In this document: positions 1 through 35,419 of the stretch, piece after piece | Numbering within the stretch: position 1 is the first letter of the stretch | Layout: every line of letters starts with the position of its first letter | Origin: an uncultured Spartobacteria bacterium | GTDB lineage: Bacteria; Verrucomicrobiota; Verrucomicrobiia; Chthoniobacterales; Chthoniobacteraceae | Assembly (NCBI GenBank): GCA_903901425.1 | Contig: CAIURC010000174.1 | Span: 1-35,419, forward strand | Direction of reading: 5' to 3' | Length of the DNA stretch: 35,419 nucleotides | Notes under the pieces: model-generated | Told to the model about the DNA's origin: nothing | Seen by the model: only the letters and a program-made list of their open reading frames with translations | The model's database searches: none | Translations under genes and position numbers: made by a program

Positions 1-1359
1 ATCGTGGACGGAGTTCTGGACGGAAAACCGGAGGCATTGAAGATGACCCGGTACGCTTCGGGGCTGCACGAGCCGCTGGGGGTGTTGCGGGACGGAGACA
101 GCCTCCTGGTGACGCAGCGGACGGAGACAACCCGGCTCCGGGACATGGACGGGGACGGCGTGGCGGATCTGTACGCGAGTGCGGGGCGTGGGTGGGGGGT
201 GTCGGGTTCCTACCACGGGTACGCGTATGGACCGAAGCGGGATGGGGCAGGGCGGAACTGGGTGAGCCTGAACGTGGACATGGGGGATCATTCGGACAAC
301 CGCCGTGGGTGGCGGGGCTGGGCCGGGGTGCTGACGTCGGAGGGGGGATTTGAGCCGATGGCAGCCGGGATGCGTTCTCCGTGCGGGTTGGGGGCGAATT
401 TGGCTGGGGACATGTTCTGTGTGGACCAGCAGGGCACCTGGGTGCCGGCGACGCCGATCTATCATTTGAGGCGCGGGGTATTTTTTCTGAATCCGGAGGG
501 GATAGGATCGCAGGAGTTGGCGGGGTCGCCTCTGCGGCTGTCGGCGAAGGTGCCGGAGAAAATGTTGTATCCGGAAGCGATGAAATTAGTGCCGGAGATG
601 CGTCCGCCTGCGGTCTGGCTTCCGTACAATAAGATGGGGCGCAGTGGCACGGACCTGGCCGTGTGTCCTGGGGGCGGGGACCTTGGTCCATCAGTTCCAT
701 CCAGTCCATCCAGTCCATCCAGTCCATCCAGTCCATCCAGTCCATCAGTTGGCTCGGGTCCATTTGGGCCATTTGGAGGCCAGCTGATGGTGGGGGAGTT
801 TACGGATGCGGGGATCAACCGGGTGTTTTTGGAGCGTGTGGAGGGGGAGTACCAGGGGGCGGCATTTCCATTTTTGAAGGGGCTGGCCTCCGGGGTGGTA
901 CGGCTGTTGTTTGGGGAGGACGGTAGTCTTTTGGTGGGGATGACCAGCCGGGGCTGGTCTTCGCTGGGGACAAAGGCGTACGGGTTGCAGCGGGTGCGTT
1001 GGACGGGGCGGACGCCGTTTGCGATTCAGGAGATGCGAGCCCTGCCGGACGGGTTTGAGCTGCGGTTTACGGCGCCGGTGGATCCGGGGACGGCGGGAGC
1101 GGTTTCCAGTTATGCGATGAGCCGGTTTACGTACTGGTATTCGGGTGCGTACGGGAGCGAGGAGATGGACACGGCGCCGTGCCCTGTGAAGGAGGCGGTG
1201 CTTGGGCCGGATGGAAGGACGGTCCGGCTCCGGGTGGAGGGGTTGCGGGAGCTGTATGTGCACGAGTTGCGTGCCGCCGGGGTGCGTTCAGCGGCGGGCG
1301 CGGCGCTGGAGGCGCCGGACGCGTACTACACGCTGAACCGGATCCCGAAGCCGCGCTGA
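1..1359 (+). CDS. Secreted beta-propeller (NHL/sorbosone-dehydrogenase-like) protein, 3' part
   Basis: The reading frame is open from the first base, so the gene probably begins outside the window; a GTG at 4 is the first possible start but has no visible context. The 451 visible residues resemble the PVC-type propeller proteins related to glucose/sorbosone dehydrogenases: short blades with Asp-rich turns (DMDGDGVADLY near residue 50), GMRSPCGLG, and a C-terminal beta-rich domain ending in YYTLNRIP, an ending I associate with large secreted planctomycete/verrucomicrobial proteins. No heme motif is visible in this part. A Ser/Pro run near residues 230-248 is encoded by a 9-bp tandem repeat and looks like an expanded linker. 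The gene converges on the sulfatase operon. The enzymatic role is unknown; a substrate-binding or dehydrogenase-like role is inference from the fold. Confidence 0.72.
   Translation: MVDGVLDGKPEALKMTRYASGLHEPLGVLRDGDSLLVTQRTETTRLRDMDGDGVADLYASAGRGWGVSGSYHGYAYGPKRDGAGRNWVSLNVDMGDHSDNRRGWRGWAGVLTSEGGFEPMAAGMRSPCGLGANLAGDMFCVDQQGTWVPATPIYHLRRGVFFLNPEGIGSQELAGSPLRLSAKVPEKMLYPEAMKLVPEMRPPAVWLPYNKMGRSGTDLAVCPGGGDLGPSVPSSPSSPSSPSSPSSPSVGSGPFGPFGGQLMVGEFTDAGINRVFLERVEGEYQGAAFPFLKGLASGVVRLLFGEDGSLLVGMTSRGWSSLGTKAYGLQRVRWTGRTPFAIQEMRALPDGFELRFTAPVDPGTAGAVSSYAMSRFTYWYSGAYGSEEMDTAPCPVKEAVLGPDGRTVRLRVEGLRELYVHELRAAGVRSAAGAALEAPDAYYTLNRIPKPR
687..750 (+). repeat. 9-bp tandem repeat inside the propeller gene
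   Basis: The unit CCAGTCCAT occurs five times without change from 701 to 745, with degenerate flanks on both sides (687-700 and 746-750). Nine bases is three codons, so the array keeps frame and encodes a Ser-Ser-Pro run between two propeller segments. Copy-number change would lengthen or shorten the linker without a frameshift. Confidence 0.9.
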
Positions 1360-1519: not shown

Positions 1520-2938
1520 TTATTCGGGGCCGGGCCCCCCTTTTCTGCCCCTGTCGCGTTTGTCGCCTTTTTTTCCTTTTCCTCCCTTTTGTCCGCCGGC
1601 CTCGCCCGGGAGCCCGCGTTCGAGTTCGGCGAAGCGGGATTCGCCGAGACCTGCGCGGACATGGGAGCGCAGTTCGGCAAGGAGTTCGGCTGTTTGAGCC
1701 GGTTTTTCCCGGGCGAGATCGTGTTGTTCGCCGAGGTCCTTGGCGAGGTTGTAGAGGAAGGTCTGACGGGTGTCCCAATAATAGAGGAGTTTGAGGTCGC
1801 CCTTCCGGAGTGCAGTCTGGGGGTGCTCGATTTCAACGTCATGATGCCAGACCATCCGCGGGATCGGTCGCCGGACGGTTCCTGCGCCTGCGTGGGTGAG
1901 GACGGGTTTCCAACTGCCGCCCTCGATTCCTGAGGGGGGCGTGAACTTCGGGGCCGCGAAGTCGAGGACGGTGGGAAGAAGGTCGTAACTGATGACCGGA
2001 GTCTGGGAGACGGAGGCTGGGCGGATTCCGGGTCCGGCAATGATCAAGGGAACACGGATGCCGCCTTCGTCGCACAGGGTTTTTCCGCCTTTAAGTGCGG
2101 GGCTGCGTCCGCCGTTGTCGGAGGTGTAAATGACAAAGGTGTTTTTGGAGATGCCGAGGGATTCGAGGGTTTGGAGGAGAGAGCCGATGCAGGTGTCGAG
2201 ATCTTCGCTCATTGCGGAGAAGACCGGGCCGCCCTTGCCGTTTTTTCCGTTGGAAGACTGGCTGGACTCATATTTGCGGAGCGTTTCAGCCAGAGCTTGT
2301 GGGCGTTGGTGGACGGCGTAGTAGGAGATTTGGAGAAAGAAGGGATGCCGTTCTTGGGTTTGGCGGGTGATGTATTCCTGGGCCCGGCGGGTGAGGCTGA
2401 AGGAGAGTTTGGGGTCGTTGGGGTCGGCGGCATCGCCGTCCTCGTTCTGGGTGATGCCGTCATGGGCATCGTACCCAAACTGTTCCGGGGATGTGGGCCA
2501 CTGCCATTTGCCGAAGTGCGCGGCGCGGTAGGCGGGTGCGGCTCGTTTGAGGGTGTTGGCGAGGGAATCAGCGGGGGACGCGGACCAGTGGCTGGCGTGT
2601 TTGACCACGGCATTCAGGCTGGTGGTGGAACGGCCCATGAGCAGCGCCGCCCGCGAACACTCGCATTTTGGGTGAGCTGCATAGGCTTGGGAAAAAACCA
2701 TGCCGCGCGTGGCGAGTTGTTCCAGATTGGGCATTTTGAGGTCGTGGGAACGGCTCAGCTCGTTTCCCGGGATCATGGCCACCGGAGTGCCGCTCCAGCT
2801 CTGGTCATCCACAAGGATCACGACAAAGTTTGGGGGTGGGGTGGTCTGGGCTCCGCTCGCGGAGGCTCCCAGAAGGCTCACAAAAAGTGCGAGTGCGGTG
2901 CAGAGGAGTCGGCGGAAAAAATGCGGGGAACGGTGCAT
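1520..2938 (-). CDS. Exported sulfatase (formylglycine family) with variant CxCxR motif
   Basis: A 472-residue type I sulfatase, expected to hydrolyse sulfate esters in the periplasm or outside the cell. The start at 2938 was chosen because it begins a signal peptide (MHRSPHFFRRLLCTALALF) and lies two bases after the stop of the upstream phosphoesterase; the frame is open for another 131 codons upstream, but that stretch is antisense-like and overlaps the neighbour. Metal-site Asp pair at residues 44-45 (ILVDDQ), formylglycine segment at 92-96 reading C-E-C-S-R followed by AALLMGR, and the later SDNGG and EGGIRVP segments are all present. Oddities: the third motif position is Cys where Pro or Ala is usual, and the C-terminus is a Gly/Lys/Arg-rich tail. 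It is the last gene of a sulfatase-phosphoesterase-sulfatase cluster. The substrate cannot be told from sequence. Confidence 0.9.
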   Translation of the reverse strand: MHRSPHFFRRLLCTALALFVSLLGASASGAQTTPPPNFVVILVDDQSWSGTPVAMIPGNELSRSHDLKMPNLEQLATRGMVFSQAYAAHPKCECSRAALLMGRSTTSLNAVVKHASHWSASPADSLANTLKRAAPAYRAAHFGKWQWPTSPEQFGYDAHDGITQNEDGDAADPNDPKLSFSLTRRAQEYITRQTQERHPFFLQISYYAVHQRPQALAETLRKYESSQSSNGKNGKGGPVFSAMSEDLDTCIGSLLQTLESLGISKNTFVIYTSDNGGRSPALKGGKTLCDEGGIRVPLIIAGPGIRPASVSQTPVISYDLLPTVLDFAAPKFTPPSGIEGGSWKPVLTHAGAGTVRRPIPRMVWHHDVEIEHPQTALRKGDLKLLYYWDTRQTFLYNLAKDLGEQHDLAREKPAQTAELLAELRSHVRAGLGESRFAELERGLPGEAGGQKGGKGKKGDKRDRGRKGGPGPE

Positions 2939-2940
2939 GG

Positions 2941-4434
2941 TTAGCGTTGGGCCGGAATGGAGTGGGAATGAGCGACTGCGCGGTTCACATTTTTCGAGGA
3001 TTGCGCGGCGGGTTCGTAGGAACGGACCAATTCGGTTTTTAGGGAATCCGGAGTCACGTGGACCCGCAGGTATCCGGGGCTTCCGAGGAGGGTGCCGGAG
3101 GTGTAGCTGTACTCGGCGGCGTTGCGCGGAGGCGCGCCATCCCCGCGGTTGCCGGGTTGCGGCACACACTGGTACACGACGCCGTCCCGTTCCTGATGAG
3201 CGTAGAGGTGGTCGTGGCCGTGGAACACCATCTGGACGCCGTGCTTGACGAGGAGTTGATGGATGGGAGTTGGCCACCCCGGGCGTTCGGAGTGAAATGC
3301 CTCGGTGCCATCGGCATTTTTTCCGCCCCACTCAAAAAACGGGGCGGCTTCGGCGCCGCCGCGGGCATCTGGGGATGCGCCTCCCACCAGGTGGTGGATG
3401 AACACGAGTTTGTACCTGGCCCTGCTGGATTCGAGAGTGCGCTGGAGCCAGTCGTACTGGTCGCGGCCCAGGGAGCGTGTCCAAAGGTTGCTGTCGTGGC
3501 GTCCATCGCCGCCGGTGAACCAGAAGGGGTCCAGGGTGACAAAAAGCGCATCGCCCCAGTGCCATGCGGCGTAATCCTGGAGCAGGCCCACCTTCGGGTG
3601 CGGAGTTGCGTTGCCCGAGTAAAACGCGTCAGGGACCGGGTTTGGGAAATACTTTTTGCGGGTTTGGTTGGACCAGAGTCCCTCCGCCTCCCGGCGGCTG
3701 CCCGTGCCGCGTTCGCCGTCATGGTTGCCGAGCACGAGGAACACCGCAGCGTTTGAGCCCGGGATGCCCAGGTAATGGCGCTGGGCGAGGTAATGTTTTT
3801 CCGCCAGTTCATAGGCGCCCCGGTATTTGTCGGTCATGAAGGTGTCCCCGAGATCGATCAGGAAATCGGGTTCGTCCGAAACCATGTTGTGGAGGGACTG
3901 GGTGTACCGCGCCGGGATCGTGTTTTCGTCCAGATGCGGATCTGCCTGGACCACGAAAGTGAACGGGCGGCCGGTCGGGCGGGCGGTTTGAAAACGCCCA
4001 GGGAGCAGCGTTTGGGTTCCGTCCGCCTTTCTGAGCCGCAGCTCAAAGTGGTACCGGGTGTCAGGCTTTAGGCCGGTAATCGGGATTTCAACGGGGTGTC
4101 CGGCCCGGAACGCCCATTTCTGCGTGGTTCCGGTGAAGGGCCCGGGATTAACGCCGTATGCGAGTGTTGCCTCGGAGTCTTGGTGGGCGAGGACGCTGGC
4201 GGTGATGGAGGTGCCGGTGGGTCGTCCGAGCACAAGGTCAACAGGATGCTCGGGAACCGCCGTGTCAAAGACGGTGGAGCCGTGGCCGCGGGATGCCCCC
4301 TGCGGTTCACCCCTGTTTTTTCGTCCTTCGCGTCCCTCTCCGCCGCCCGGTTTTGGGTCTGCAGACTCGGGGGTGGGTGCGGCAATGGCCGACAGGGTGC
4401 CCAGCAGGAGGGCGGCGATGGAAGATCGGATCAC
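2941..4434 (-). CDS. Exported purple acid phosphatase-like metallophosphoesterase
   Basis: A 497-residue calcineurin-type phosphoesterase with a signal peptide (MIRSSIAALLLGTLSAIAAP). A low-complexity Gly/Arg/Glu-rich linker (about 29-52) leads to a fibronectin-like domain (about 60-150, ending GLKPDTRYHFELRL), as in purple acid phosphatases. The metal-binding motifs follow in order: D165-x-H167, GDT at 196-198, GNHD at 236-239, HH at 347-348 and GHDH at 406-409. Five dinuclear-metal motifs in the right order make a catalytically complete enzyme likely. It sits between two sulfatases on the same strand, 52 bases after the first and two bases before the second, which suggests joint use on polymers carrying sulfate and phosphate. 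The actual substrate is unknown. Confidence 0.9.
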   Translation of the reverse strand: MIRSSIAALLLGTLSAIAAPTPESADPKPGGGEGREGRKNRGEPQGASRGHGSTVFDTAVPEHPVDLVLGRPTGTSITASVLAHQDSEATLAYGVNPGPFTGTTQKWAFRAGHPVEIPITGLKPDTRYHFELRLRKADGTQTLLPGRFQTARPTGRPFTFVVQADPHLDENTIPARYTQSLHNMVSDEPDFLIDLGDTFMTDKYRGAYELAEKHYLAQRHYLGIPGSNAAVFLVLGNHDGERGTGSRREAEGLWSNQTRKKYFPNPVPDAFYSGNATPHPKVGLLQDYAAWHWGDALFVTLDPFWFTGGDGRHDSNLWTRSLGRDQYDWLQRTLESSRARYKLVFIHHLVGGASPDARGGAEAAPFFEWGGKNADGTEAFHSERPGWPTPIHQLLVKHGVQMVFHGHDHLYAHQERDGVVYQCVPQPGNRGDGAPPRNAAEYSYTSGTLLGSPGYLRVHVTPDSLKTELVRSYEPAAQSSKNVNRAVAHSHSIPAQR

Positions 4435-4486
4435 CCGGCCAGACTGCAGGAGGGAAGCTGAAGAAGCGATGAAGCCGGGCGCTTTC

Positions 4487-6010
4487 TCAGGGAATGCGGG
4501 GTTTGAGTGGGCCGGTTTCGGTGACTGGATACTGGGCGTTTTGAGTTTCCAGGGATTTGGCGAGGGCGAGCATCATCCGGCGCAGGTCTTCCGGACGTTC
4601 GGAAGCAAGGTTGCGCTGTTCGAAGGGATCCGAGGCGAGGTGGAAGAGTTGGTACGGGCTGTTGTCGGACTGCGGCCCCGGAAAGTAGTGGTAAACAACC
4701 TTCCAATCGTTCTCGCGGTAGGCCGTGAAATGGCTGCTCCGATGCGGCGTGTGGGGATAGTGCATCAGGAAGGATTCGCGGCGCGTAGGGTCAGCAGCCC
4801 CGGAAAGAAGTGTCTGGAGCGGGGAACCGTCCAGCGGATGCGTGGCGGGTGCAGGAATGCCGGCGGCTTTGAGGAGGGTCGGGAAGATGTCGTAAACGGC
4901 CGCCTGCTGGCTTTGGATGGTGCCTGCGGGAATAGGAATCTGGCGCTGGAGAGAGTTGCCGGGTTCCGGGCGCGCCCAAGCGGCGATGAATGGGACCCGC
5001 ATGCCGCCCTCGTAGTGGGATCCTTTGCGTCCCCGGAGTGGTTCGGCGCAGGCAACGGCGTGTTCGTGTCCATGCGGGGCATCGGACCCGTTGTCGCCGA
5101 GAAAGAGGACGAGGGTGTTGCCGGCGACCTTCAGGGATTCGAGGTGGTCGATCAGGTCGCCGAGGGATTTGTCCATGCCCTCGATGAGCGTGGCAAAGGC
5201 CTGGGCAGAAGCGGGCCGGCCGGAATCCTTGTAGTGCGGGGCAAAGCGCGGGTCGCTCTGGAAGGGCGAGTGGACCGCGTAGTGGGCAAGGTAAAGGAAG
5301 AAAGGTTTGTGGTTCTCCACAGCCTGGGAGACATGGGCCTTGGCTTCCGCAGTCAGGGCGTCGGTCAGAAATGTGTCCGTGCCATGGTATTTCTCGAGTC
5401 CGGGAACGGCATGGGTGGAAGCCTTTTTGCCGGCGCCATCGAAATTGTCCTTCCCGAAATAACTGGCGGGATGGCCGTTGCCGGATCCGGCGACATTGAC
5501 GTCGAAGCCGAGGTGGACGGGGTTGGAGCCTGGGGTTCCTTCGGGGCCGAAATGGCCTTTGCCCACATGGATCGTGCGGTAGCCCGACTGCTGGAGGAGT
5601 CGCGGGAGGGTGACCGATTCGGAGCCGAGCCCGAGCCAGTTCCAGTCTGGGGGCGAGTTTTTGCCGCCGTTATTCTGGTGGGGGTTGATCCAGTTGGTGG
5701 TGTGGTGGCGCGCGGCGTTCTGTCCGGTGAGCAGGGAGACCCGGGTGGGGGAGCAGACGCTCATGGCGCAGAACTGGTTGAACCGGATGCCTTGAGCCGC
5801 CAGTCGCTCCATCTGGGGAGTCCGGTAGAACTGGTTGAGCGGGTAAGCCCTGGGTTTGCCCTCGGGATCGGTCAGGAACGGCACGGAGGTATCCATGACG
5901 CCCATGTCGTCCACGAGGAAAACCACGAGGTTGGGAGTGGGCTGGGCTGCGAGGAGTGGGAGCGCGGGGAGCGCGCCCATCAGGCCGACGAGAAGTCCGA
6001 GGAGTTTCAC
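4487..6010 (-). CDS. Exported sulfatase (formylglycine family), CSPTR type
   Basis: A 507-residue sulfatase with an N-terminal signal peptide (MKLLGLLVGLMGALPALPLLAAQ). The metal site is FLVDDMG (Asp 34-35), the formylglycine motif is the canonical C86-S-P-T-R90 followed by VSLLTG, and GDNGSD plus GGMRVPFIAAW occur later. The C-terminal part carries the usual small domain with the family's HLASDPFEQRNLA-like segment. It is the first gene of the minus-strand cluster that continues with the phosphoesterase and second sulfatase. Activation requires a formylglycine-generating enzyme or an anSME, neither encoded here. It differs enough from its neighbour to suggest a different sulfate ester as substrate. 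Confidence 0.93.
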   Translation of the reverse strand: MKLLGLLVGLMGALPALPLLAAQPTPNLVVFLVDDMGVMDTSVPFLTDPEGKPRAYPLNQFYRTPQMERLAAQGIRFNQFCAMSVCSPTRVSLLTGQNAARHHTTNWINPHQNNGGKNSPPDWNWLGLGSESVTLPRLLQQSGYRTIHVGKGHFGPEGTPGSNPVHLGFDVNVAGSGNGHPASYFGKDNFDGAGKKASTHAVPGLEKYHGTDTFLTDALTAEAKAHVSQAVENHKPFFLYLAHYAVHSPFQSDPRFAPHYKDSGRPASAQAFATLIEGMDKSLGDLIDHLESLKVAGNTLVLFLGDNGSDAPHGHEHAVACAEPLRGRKGSHYEGGMRVPFIAAWARPEPGNSLQRQIPIPAGTIQSQQAAVYDIFPTLLKAAGIPAPATHPLDGSPLQTLLSGAADPTRRESFLMHYPHTPHRSSHFTAYRENDWKVVYHYFPGPQSDNSPYQLFHLASDPFEQRNLASERPEDLRRMMLALAKSLETQNAQYPVTETGPLKPRIP

Positions 6011-29071: not shown

Positions 29072-29224
29072 GGCAGGAGATGCGGTTGAGGACGGACGGG
29101 GCCCCGGACAAAACCGGGGAGATCAGGGACGGAACTGTCTTCAGGATTCGGAAAGCGCTGCGGCAGGGCACAAAATGGAAACGTGCTTGCTGGGTTCGTT
29201 TTTTTGTGGTGCTGGAAGTTTGTT

Positions 29225-29290
29225 GAAAGAGGTTCGTTGAGAGAGGTTCGTTGAAAGAGGTTCGTTGAAAGAGGTTCGTTGAAAGAGGTT
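29225..29290. repeat. 14-bp tandem direct repeats upstream of the sigma factor gene
   Basis: The unit GAAAGAGGTTCGTT is repeated head to tail: copies start at 29225, 29239 (one base changed), 29253, 29267 and 29281 (the last is truncated and diverges after ten bases). The array lies about 150 bases upstream of the minus-strand sigma gene. Because 14 is not a multiple of three, a translation would cycle through frames, so a coding role is unlikely. Confidence 0.9.
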
Positions 29291-33646: not shown

Positions 33647-34066
33647 GGGATGGATGGGAAAAGTTTGCCGCGTTGCTGGAGGGCTGGGGACGCAGGGAAG
33701 ACCCGGATTCCACGAAAACCTTGGGTTGAAACTGGCCGGCAGTAAACTCTAGGACGCCTTGGATTGGAGGGTTTCGTGGGCGGAACACGAATTTGCGTTG
33801 GATTGGCCCGCGGATTGCTCCTCTCGCCGGGACAATCGAACTCAGAAAGTTAAACTAAAGAATTTATAAAACAGCTGAATGTTTTGTTCCTTTCCAGAGG
33901 AGTGCTTTTCCGGCACTTTGCGTGTACTTTTTCGGGACTTTCCCCTCAAGAAGCGCTGGGTTTTCCCGAATTGAACCAAGACTGACCCCTGTTGAGCCGA
34001 GTTCCGTCGATTCTTTCCCTCTCTAATTCATCCCGTCCCGCTGCCTAACTTCAACCCATCCCTACT
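33647..34066. other. Intergenic region between divergent cytochrome c and octapeptide-repeat genes
   Basis: No gene seen. The stretch 33840-33895 is the most AT-rich of the window (TTAAACTAAAGAATTTATAAAAC) and probably contains promoter elements for one or both divergent genes, but no -10/-35 pair of good spacing could be fixed. A near-perfect direct repeat follows at 33905-33941. No Shine-Dalgarno sequence precedes the ATG at 34067. Confidence 0.6.
33905..33941. repeat. 15-bp direct repeat, two helical turns apart
   Basis: CTTTTCCGGCACTTT (33905-33919) and CTTTTTCGGGACTTT (33927-33941) match at 13 of 15 positions, with starts 22 bases apart. Same-face spacing makes this a candidate tandem operator for a DNA-binding protein upstream of the octapeptide-repeat gene. 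Confidence 0.45.
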
Positions 34067-35419
34067 ATGCCTCTTGATTTCTCCGCTCTGGATACTCAGC
34101 AAGTTCTTGGTCTTAGCTCCAACGCGGTGCGGTTGTTGGTTTCAAGCGAGATTGCGACGATTTCGAGCGATCAGATTGCTTTCTTGAACACGGCTGGGTT
34201 GGCAGCATTTTCGAGCGCCCAAGTCCGGGCTTTTACGACGGATGCGCTGCCTGGGTTGACGAGTGCGCAGGTGGGTCGGTTGAGCACTGCCGGGGTGACG
34301 GGGTTGTCCTCCACACAGGTCGGGGCCTTGGCAACGGGTTCTCTGGCGGGATTGACATCAGGGCAGGTGCGGACGCTGACTTCGACACAGGTGGGCGGAT
34401 TGATTGCGGGTCAGGTGGATGTGTTGAGTTCCACGCAGATTTCAAACTTCACCACGGCGGCTGTCCGTGGATTGACGACCGACGGATTGAATGTTCTGAC
34501 CAGCTCGGACGTTCAGGGGTTCACCAGTGGCCAGATTGCAGTCCTTGGCAGTGCTCAGGTTGCCGCGCTTCTGACGGACGCTTTGGTAACGCTTTCCACA
34601 GGGTTGGTTCGCGCGCTGGGTTCGGCCCAGGTTGCGGGGCTCAGCACGGACAGCGTTTCGGCCCTGACCTCGACTCAGATTGGAGCGCTGACCACGGCTG
34701 CGGTGAGGGGGTTGACTACGGACGGGGTTTCTGTGCTGGATTCGACGGATGTGAAAGGCTTCACCACGGCGCAGTTCGGGGTGCTGGGAACCAGCCAGCT
34801 GAACGCGCTGACGACGGATGCCGTGAAGGGTCTTAGCAGTGGGCAGCTTGCCGCGCTTTCGAGCGGGGTTGTGGCCGGGTTGACGACGGACCAACTCGCG
34901 GTAGTCGCATCGAACCAAGTGACCGGATTGACGACGGGTGTTCTGCAGGCACTGACCTCTGTACAGCTGCAGAACTTGGCAACGGGAGCGGTGACCGGGT
35001 TGACCACGGGTCAGGTGCGGGTGCTGAGTTCGACGCAGTTGGGCGCGCTGACCACGGATGCGGTGGATGTGCTCAGCTCGACCCAGATTGGAGCGCTGAC
35101 CACGGGCGCTCTTGCGGGCCTCACCACGGATGCGGCCAACGTGCTGACGAACACGGATGTGAAGGGCTTCACGACGGCACAGCTCCTGGTGCTGAACTCT
35201 GCGCTGGTGAAGGCGTTGCAGACTGGCGCGGTGACCGGGTTGACTACGGCGCAGGTCCGTGCGCTGAGCTCGACGCAGTTGGGTGCGCTGACCACGGATC
35301 AGGTGGACGTGCTGAGCTCGACGCAGATCGGTGCGCTGTCCACAGCTTCGGTTGCCGGGTTGACGACAGACGCCGTGAACGTGCTCAACAGCACGGATGT
35401 GCAGGGGCTCACGAGTGCC
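34067..35419 (+). CDS. Octapeptide-repeat protein, 5' part (continues beyond window)
   Basis: The frame from ATG 34067 is open to the last base (451 codons) and has no stop. After seven residues (MPLDFSA) the whole sequence is an eight-residue repeat, consensus L-[ST]-[ST]-x-[QA]-[VLI]-x-[AGV], with 55 full copies and no insertion or deletion, for example LTTAQVRA, LSSTQLGA, LTTDQVDV. A higher-order unit of ten octads (80 residues, 240 bp) is visible: 34991 and 35231 begin nearly identical stretches. There is no N-terminal signal peptide, membrane helix or Cys. Regular hydrophobic positions every eight residues predict a solenoid. Proteins with similar LTTxQVxAL runs exist in other bacteria as very large presumed adhesins, but I know no characterised member. 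Type I export with a C-terminal signal beyond the window would fit. Confidence 0.88.
   Translation, partial: MPLDFSALDTQQVLGLSSNAVRLLVSSEIATISSDQIAFLNTAGLAAFSSAQVRAFTTDALPGLTSAQVGRLSTAGVTGLSSTQVGALATGSLAGLTSGQVRTLTSTQVGGLIAGQVDVLSSTQISNFTTAAVRGLTTDGLNVLTSSDVQGFTSGQIAVLGSAQVAALLTDALVTLSTGLVRALGSAQVAGLSTDSVSALTSTQIGALTTAAVRGLTTDGVSVLDSTDVKGFTTAQFGVLGTSQLNALTTDAVKGLSSGQLAALSSGVVAGLTTDQLAVVASNQVTGLTTGVLQALTSVQLQNLATGAVTGLTTGQVRVLSSTQLGALTTDAVDVLSSTQIGALTTGALAGLTTDAANVLTNTDVKGFTTAQLLVLNSALVKALQTGAVTGLTTAQVRALSSTQLGALTTDQVDVLSSTQIGALSTASVAGLTTDAVNVLNSTDVQGLTSA

Follow-up and report, generated by a model that had tools for sequence, protein, structure and literature searches.

The window analysed here, 35,419 nucleotides in length, represents the whole of contig C174 of a draft genome (G000; 5.1 Mb in 224 contigs), and its right-hand end carries the 5′ part of a gene encoding a protein built of eight-residue repeats (Table 1). 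Following a seven-residue start, the frame comprises 55 octads with zero register breaks and a further four residues, the consensus of the octad being L-T-T-x-Q-V-x-x and the register of the pattern L-[TS]-[TS]-x-Q-[VIL]-x-x running on unbroken through all 55. Position 1 is occupied by leucine in 47 of the 55 octads (phenylalanine in 6, isoleucine in 1 and valine in 1), position 3 by threonine or serine in 53, and position 6 by valine, leucine or isoleucine, likewise in 53. Cysteine, tryptophan and tyrosine are absent from the 451 residues of the window protein, 123 of which are serine or threonine, and N-x-S/T sites number just two.

Table 1. Features of the window and of two further octad-encoding contigs of the same genome
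Sequence	Position	Strand	Feature	Basis or remark
Window (C174)	686-746		9-base tandem repeat GTCCATCCA, nearly seven copies	
Window (C174)	29218-29290		14-base direct repeat GTTCGTTGAAAGAG, five copies	just past a minus-strand sigma-factor-like frame
Window (C174)	33647..34066	.	intergenic region of 420 bases separating the octad gene from the divergent PF23500 gene; expected promoter site	gene positions
Window (C174)	34067..35419	+	5′ part of ALTTAQ octad-repeat gene; single stop-free frame of 451 codons, cut by the contig end	PF20080 match; octad table; AlphaFold
Window (C174)	34067..34087	+	seven-residue start MPLDFSA ahead of the first octad	no preceding domain; similarly short starts in the N-termini of relatives
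Window (C174)	34523..35410	+	first 37-octad super-repeat unit (296 residues, 888 bases)	followed, on the probable continuation contig C16, by two further copies (its first two units)
Window (C174)	35410..35419	+	in-frame overlap of 10 bases with the start of C16; probable junction	suffix-prefix overlap; 296-residue register kept
C16 (L008)	2321-4510		HlyB-type ABC transporter, 729 aa, directly after the octad frame	TIGR01846 E 4.4e-185, 616.9 bits, under the curated 725.55
C16 (L008)	4517-5887		HlyD, 456 aa, after HlyB	TIGR01843 260.6 bits, over the cut-off of 208.65
C82 (L009)	3-776	-	second octad gene, starting MSGLSFSVLG, 258 aa, running off the contig	

Over lags of 1 to 199 residues the mean self-identity of the window protein was 0.337 at multiples of eight as against 0.080 at all others, and the strongest lag, that of 80 residues or ten octads, gave an identity of 0.51 as compared to a maximum of 0.19 among 200 shuffles. 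The unbroken octads, which keep a single register up to the contig end, and the ten-octad superperiod, both described in an earlier note on this DNA, are real and far beyond chance. Its statements that no domain precedes the repeat and that no signal peptide is visible also stand, as the octads start at residue 8 and the N-terminus, judged by eye, shows no such signal. A 'repeats only' architecture is common to many relatives of the protein, and a longer super-repeat reaches from the window into the probable continuation of the gene. We give virtually no credence to the reading that the array is not a gene and represents a low-complexity artefact of repetitive DNA: its period of 24 and 240 bases is regular and the contig ends inside it, yet the protein register is kept while the DNA units differ (88% identity between units for protein versus 83% for DNA), the N- and C-termini of relatives can be aligned, and the family spans phyla, so that this reading is already contradicted.

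Further octads are encoded on two other contigs of the genome, C16 and C82, and the left end of C16 specifies 731 residues of octads up to a stop codon. The last 10 bases of C174 are identical to the first 10 of C16 and in frame with them, an overlap that is short and at which repeat units may be collapsed or missing. Residues 153-451 of the window protein are identical to C16 residues 1-299 at 264 of 299 positions, while C16 residues 1-296 are identical to residues 297-592 at 212 of 296 (lag 296). Placed by the overlap, C16 residue 1 becomes residue 449, exactly 296 past residue 153, with the super-repeat in register. As overlap, frame and super-repeat register agree, the octads of C174 and C16 probably belong to a single gene encoding some 1,179 residues or more, with 55 octads counted on the former and 90 on the latter, that is approximately 145 or more together; the register on C16 shifts once, near residue 580. 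The break in the assembly at this point is ascribed to the long near-copies within the repeat. Synteny gives no support, as the PF23500 neighbour is without a counterpart on the piece carrying the N-terminus in the same-family genome G002 (L027), a distant hit being found on L028 alone, and the contig link therefore rests on overlap, frame and register. If the link is right, the stop shortly beyond the window edge that the earlier note had considered does not occur, and the frame continues for at least 728 more residues.

The window protein belongs to Pfam family PF20080 (ALTTAQ repeat), which it matches with 257.3 bits as against a cut-off of 26.4 (E 3.8e-78; 19 stretches passing) and from which it differs in nothing by sequence; the description of the family names no function. 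Relatives occur in other genomes of the bacterial family concerned, and in proteobacteria both in genomes and on plasmids. Among the octad frames encountered the longest has 6,821 residues and is still open where its contig ends; it lies in a same-family relative (G020:C77; L020/L021). The closest solved protein by sequence is the designed protein HeliScrew4 (PDB 9zem), which matches the window octads over 105 residues (phmmer E 4e-9). AlphaFold modelling of the first 247 residues with 22 aligned N-termini resulted in a pLDDT of 95.2 and a pTM of 0.86, and in the predicted model (DSSP) each octad contributes a turn and a single helix some five residues long, the whole describing a continuous screw in which octad positions 2 and 3 are the start of each helix. 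The C-terminal 200 residues encoded on C16 (pLDDT 93.1, pTM 0.81) are likewise predicted to keep a helix-turn per octad to the end, with a slightly longer last helix. Going by the sequence and name of 9zem, the window octads would share its fold; 9zem was absent among the matches listed by Foldseek and VIA-align. The best among the matches listed were mesothelin for Foldseek (E 6.5e-5, TM 0.39, rmsd 8.5) and, for VIA-align, one of Z 7.9 at rmsd 7.3; such matches, which represent a generic superhelix of short helices, were not taken as kinship.

Since PF20080 was already described and 9zem had been solved with the same octad, there is precedent for a period of eight and probably for the fold as well. 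The earlier note had regarded the period as unusual and the structure as undescribed, views overtaken by a catalogued family, a solved design, and a probable fold available through the 9zem match and the AlphaFold model. It had further looked to a database match to a family of known fold and function, and of these a family and a probable fold were found and a tested function was not. Readings of the repeat as RTX, leucine-rich or ice-nucleation repeats were not borne out by any Pfam match of the window protein, and leucine-rich-repeat chains, which scored below 9zem in the solved-chain search, conflict with the predicted fold. The hits to Prok_Ub (PF14454) and other Pfam families were set aside as partial matches to the repeat, Prok_Ub for the C16 protein being barely over its cut-off (26.3 versus 25) with no single stretch passing. 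NCBIfam returned nothing above cut-off for the octad protein, Pfam gave no match to hemolysin-type calcium-binding nonapeptides (RTX) at E ≤ 1 for the window protein or at E ≤ 0.1 for that of C16, and no N-terminal TPS/haemagglutination domain of the HMW1 type was matched in the window protein. Repeat similarity appears to underlie the names 'ICE nucleation protein', 'heme utilization protein' and 'large exoprotein involved in heme utilization or adhesion' under which octad proteins encoded on plasmids are annotated.

The search for neighbouring genes of the hlyB/hlyD type, as suggested in the earlier note, succeeded in relatives and also on C16, the probable continuation contig, where the HlyB frame lies 123 bases from the octad stop codon; OEP/TolC-type proteins are encoded elsewhere in the same genome. 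Among 40 genomes of the bacterial family, PF20080 is present in 13 and HlyB (E ≤ 1e-120) in 6, all of which are within the 13, the other 7 being without such a HlyB. An octad C-terminal piece is located directly upstream of HlyB in five of the six (G000, G002, G006, G012 and G039), each piece ending at a contig edge; for the sixth, G042, no octad gene was found in the 2.4 kb available upstream of HlyB. In a set of 26 loci gathered by octad similarity alone, which is taxonomically clustered (many Oxalobacteraceae and Rhizobiaceae) and includes some short flanks, the order octad gene-HlyB-HlyD was established on intact contigs in three (L035, L042 and L053), and full-length HlyB was missing from the fetched flanks of the other 23. 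Neither a classical RTX signal nor any other known secretion signal was detected in the octad protein, and an alignment of 15 C-termini revealed a similar short C-terminal cap (..LNAL..). Several of the octad frames of the proteobacterial loci L033, L034, L035, L042, L046 and L051 were observed to end in approximately 250-400 non-repeat residues. Weak EF-hand or dockerin-like loops, perhaps calcium-dependent, were detected in five of these six scanned C-termini, and no such domain was seen at the C-terminus encoded on C16.

Secretion of the octad protein by a type I system is well supported, and the HlyB/HlyD transporter encoded beside it would be the exporter. That the protein is instead a cytosolic scaffold or storage protein, with HlyB/HlyD serving other cargo, appears to us quite improbable: such a reading would agree with the lack of a visible Sec signal and with the many loci whose fetched flanks contain no transporter, but in separate lineages HlyB and HlyD come right after the octad gene, the gap to HlyB on C16 is short, and two plasmids carry ABC-HlyD-TolC sets next to octad genes.

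A second gene associated with the octads encodes a glycosyltransferase of family GT41 (OGT-like). A GT41 match was present in the fetched flank of 12 of the 26 loci (L034, L035, L036, L038, L039, L041, L044, L045, L046, L047, L049 and L050), in 11 of these at 0.65 kb or less from the octad frame, as measured from the match to the frame edges, and at 7.7 kb in L035; the fetched flanks of the remaining 14 contained none. A genome search covering 13 of these 14 loci and three flank-positive ones identified a GT41 match (E ≤ 1e-40) in 15 of 15 genomes, at one or two in each genome of 4.4-8.2 Mb, a threshold that alone is not proof of membership of the GT41 clade described below, the weakest genome (G064, 1.4e-57) being unsure. 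The last flank-negative locus, L043, was taken as G020:C77, and G020 has a member of that clade. With one or two GT41 genes per genome of this size, a chance neighbour within approximately 25 kb is therefore expected in an estimated 1% or so of cases.

Phylogenetic analysis established that this association is specific to one GT41 clade. A branch supported at 100/100 sets the linked and candidate domains apart from the others in a tree of 40 GT41 domains. A larger tree of 85 domains, comprising the GT41 matches of the family genomes and 14 linked ones, with a weak partial match in G007 left out, contains a clade of 25 (SH-aLRT 89) made up of all 14 linked domains and 11 from nine ALTTAQ-positive genomes, and none of the 36 GT41 domains from ALTTAQ-negative genomes falls within it. 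The clade is thus found in 9 of 13 PF20080-positive family genomes versus 0 of 27 negative ones (Fisher 2.6e-6, uncorrected for kinship), four of the 13 being without it. Across the phylum (387 genomes; up to 3 candidates per genome scored in one search and up to 19 in the other), PF20080 was found in two genomes, the present one and G208, and the GT41 query (E ≤ 1e-55) in three, namely these two and G402, in which PF20080 was not found at the threshold used. GT41 directly follows the octad gene in G208, its frame edge lies about 14 bases from the octad frame in G011, and in G039 an octad piece, HlyB, HlyD and GT41 occur together on one contig of 6.8 kb.

The genome of the window possesses a single GT41 protein, encoded on contig C220 (1146 aa with TPRs; PF13844 E 5.5e-84), which falls inside the ALTTAQ-linked clade and has no octad gene adjoining it within the stretch read. 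This protein aligns with XcOGT (best chain E 2.2e-78) and with human OGT, the HP..H and YK-x-(N/D)-P motifs, which we take to include catalytic and UDP-binding residues of OGT, being kept, and the best solved matches to the GT41 here are animal OGT and XcOGT. Some GT41 frames of the clade (L044, L046, L093 and L095) are 1,085-1,320 residues long owing to an extra C-terminal part, which in L044 and L046 matches a methyltransferase query.

The fullest cassettes of octad gene, GT41 and type I secretion genes are those on plasmids. Six plasmid regions were opened (L065, L066, L156, L157, L158 and L159) of 58 records with a match, and four of these (L065, L156, L157 and L159; not L066 or L158) carry an octad gene together with GT41, a type I secretion ABC transporter and HlyD, TolC being present as well in L156 and L159. 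The region from a Pseudomonas sp. plasmid (L156) contains the ABC transporter, HlyD, TolC, a GDP-mannose dehydratase, a glycosyltransferase, a methyltransferase, an octad gene of 8 kb and a TPR-GT41, while that of P. asturiensis pCC1524 (L159) harbours three octad frames with GT41, TolC, HlyD and the ABC transporter. On plasmid b of Cereibacter sphaeroides (2.4.1 type) the octad gene adjoins genes for an 'O-linked acetylglucosamine transferase', an ABC transporter, HlyD and a methyltransferase. Caulobacter vibrioides likewise gave matches to both the octad and the GT41 family. An unannotated Niveispirillum plasmid (L157) encodes GT41, HlyD and HlyB near the octad frame, GT41 follows the octad gene in Rhodovastum, and the Rhizobium daejeonense plasmid (L158) has an octad gene and GT41, with no type I secretion genes in the stretch.

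These associations suggest that GT41 acts on the octad protein, the serine and threonine residues of the octads being the acceptors. The presence of 123 such residues versus two N-x-S/T sites favours O-glycosylation over an N-glycosylation of the HMW1C kind. Octad position 3 is rich in serine and threonine and poor in proline (0-4%) in 37 of 37 proteins, i.e. that of the window and 36 locus frames, with or without GT41 in the flank, and because all are alike in this respect the frequency of threonine and serine versus proline at this position says nothing on glycosylation. HeliScrew4 has mostly proline at position 3, where the natural window protein has threonine or serine, which hints that these residues are not needed for the fold.

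A different explanation is that the type I secreted octad fibre is unglycosylated, that its serine and threonine residues are helix caps only, and that the target of the linked GT41 is some other gene product, for instance flagellin, a polysaccharide or another adhesin. Serine and threonine are natural helix caps, and octad positions 2 and 3 open each predicted helix, so that capping can account for these residues at position 2; moreover, the TPR-glycosyltransferase FlmG is reported to modify flagellins (PMC7591256), and a flagellar cluster lies beside an octad gene on the Rhodovastum plasmid (L066 2201-9311; flagellar export and basal-body genes). We nevertheless consider this explanation unlikely, as 11 of the 12 linked loci have GT41 in close proximity to the octad gene, the distribution of its clade among genomes follows that of PF20080, and a fold that 9zem attains with mostly proline at position 3 has no need of the serine or threonine found there in 53 of 55 window octads.

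On balance we favour a giant PF20080 octad rod that is O-glycosylated by GT41 in the cytosol and exported by a type I system as a surface-attached or released fibre. The octads, each a short helix and a turn, would stack as a continuous screw-like rod of approximately 145 octads or more, synthesised without a Sec signal in the cytosol, where a dedicated OGT-like GT41 would O-glycosylate the Ser/Thr-rich octad positions 2 and 3. Export would proceed via the HlyB-type ABC transporter, the HlyD-type adaptor and a TolC-type outer membrane channel, and the resulting fibre may serve in adhesion, aggregation, a matrix or a surface coat, among which we make no choice. More tentatively, the loci may represent a widespread, undescribed 'glyco-type-I-secretion' cassette, plasmid-borne and common to the phylum of the window and the proteobacteria, in which an OGT-like GT41 clade decorates the serine and threonine residues of giant octad screws ahead of their export by HlyB/HlyD/TolC.

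In the open literature searched, with subscription papers and preprints mostly outside its scope, no papers on the function of ALTTAQ/HeliScrew octad proteins and no experiment on any PF20080 member were found, nor did any title or abstract describe a pairing of octad repeats or type I secretion with GT41/OGT. The repeat itself is already catalogued, and an earlier description of the GT41/type I pairing is possible. The association provides the octad proteins with a testable function, in which they would have a dedicated O-glycosyltransferase and a route of export. Should this hold, it would represent a bacterial repeat fibre with one or two sugar sites per octad, in which the enzyme family of animal O-GlcNAc signalling is paired with type I secretion and which offers a natural regular acceptor for studying GT41 site choice, and the current names 'ICE nucleation protein' and 'heme utilization protein' would need correcting.

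The proposed system resembles two known kinds, namely giant repeat proteins secreted by type I systems and adhesins modified by GT41. LapA is a type I secreted giant RTX adhesin. RTX adhesins of the MpAFP type are likewise giant repeat proteins, as is the octad protein encoded beside HlyB/HlyD; they are composed of nonapeptide or Ig-like repeats, whereas the window protein is without these by Pfam and has helical octads instead. The serine-rich repeat proteins of Gram-positive bacteria are exported by accessory Sec and not by type I secretion. They too are Ser-rich repeat adhesins that are O-glycosylated. HMW1/HMW1C combines two-partner secretion with a GT41 N-glycosyltransferase and is similar in that an adhesin is paired with an OGT/HMW1C-like glycosyltransferase of the cytosol, but the export route is another, the GT41 of the octad loci is OGT-like, and the 451 window residues are all but devoid of N-x-S/T sites. 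FlmG of Caulobacter crescentus, which is reported to comprise TPR and glycosyltransferase parts and to O-modify flagellins in the cytosol (PMC7591256), is similar as a TPR-glycosyltransferase acting on exported proteins and differs in that its substrates are flagellins.
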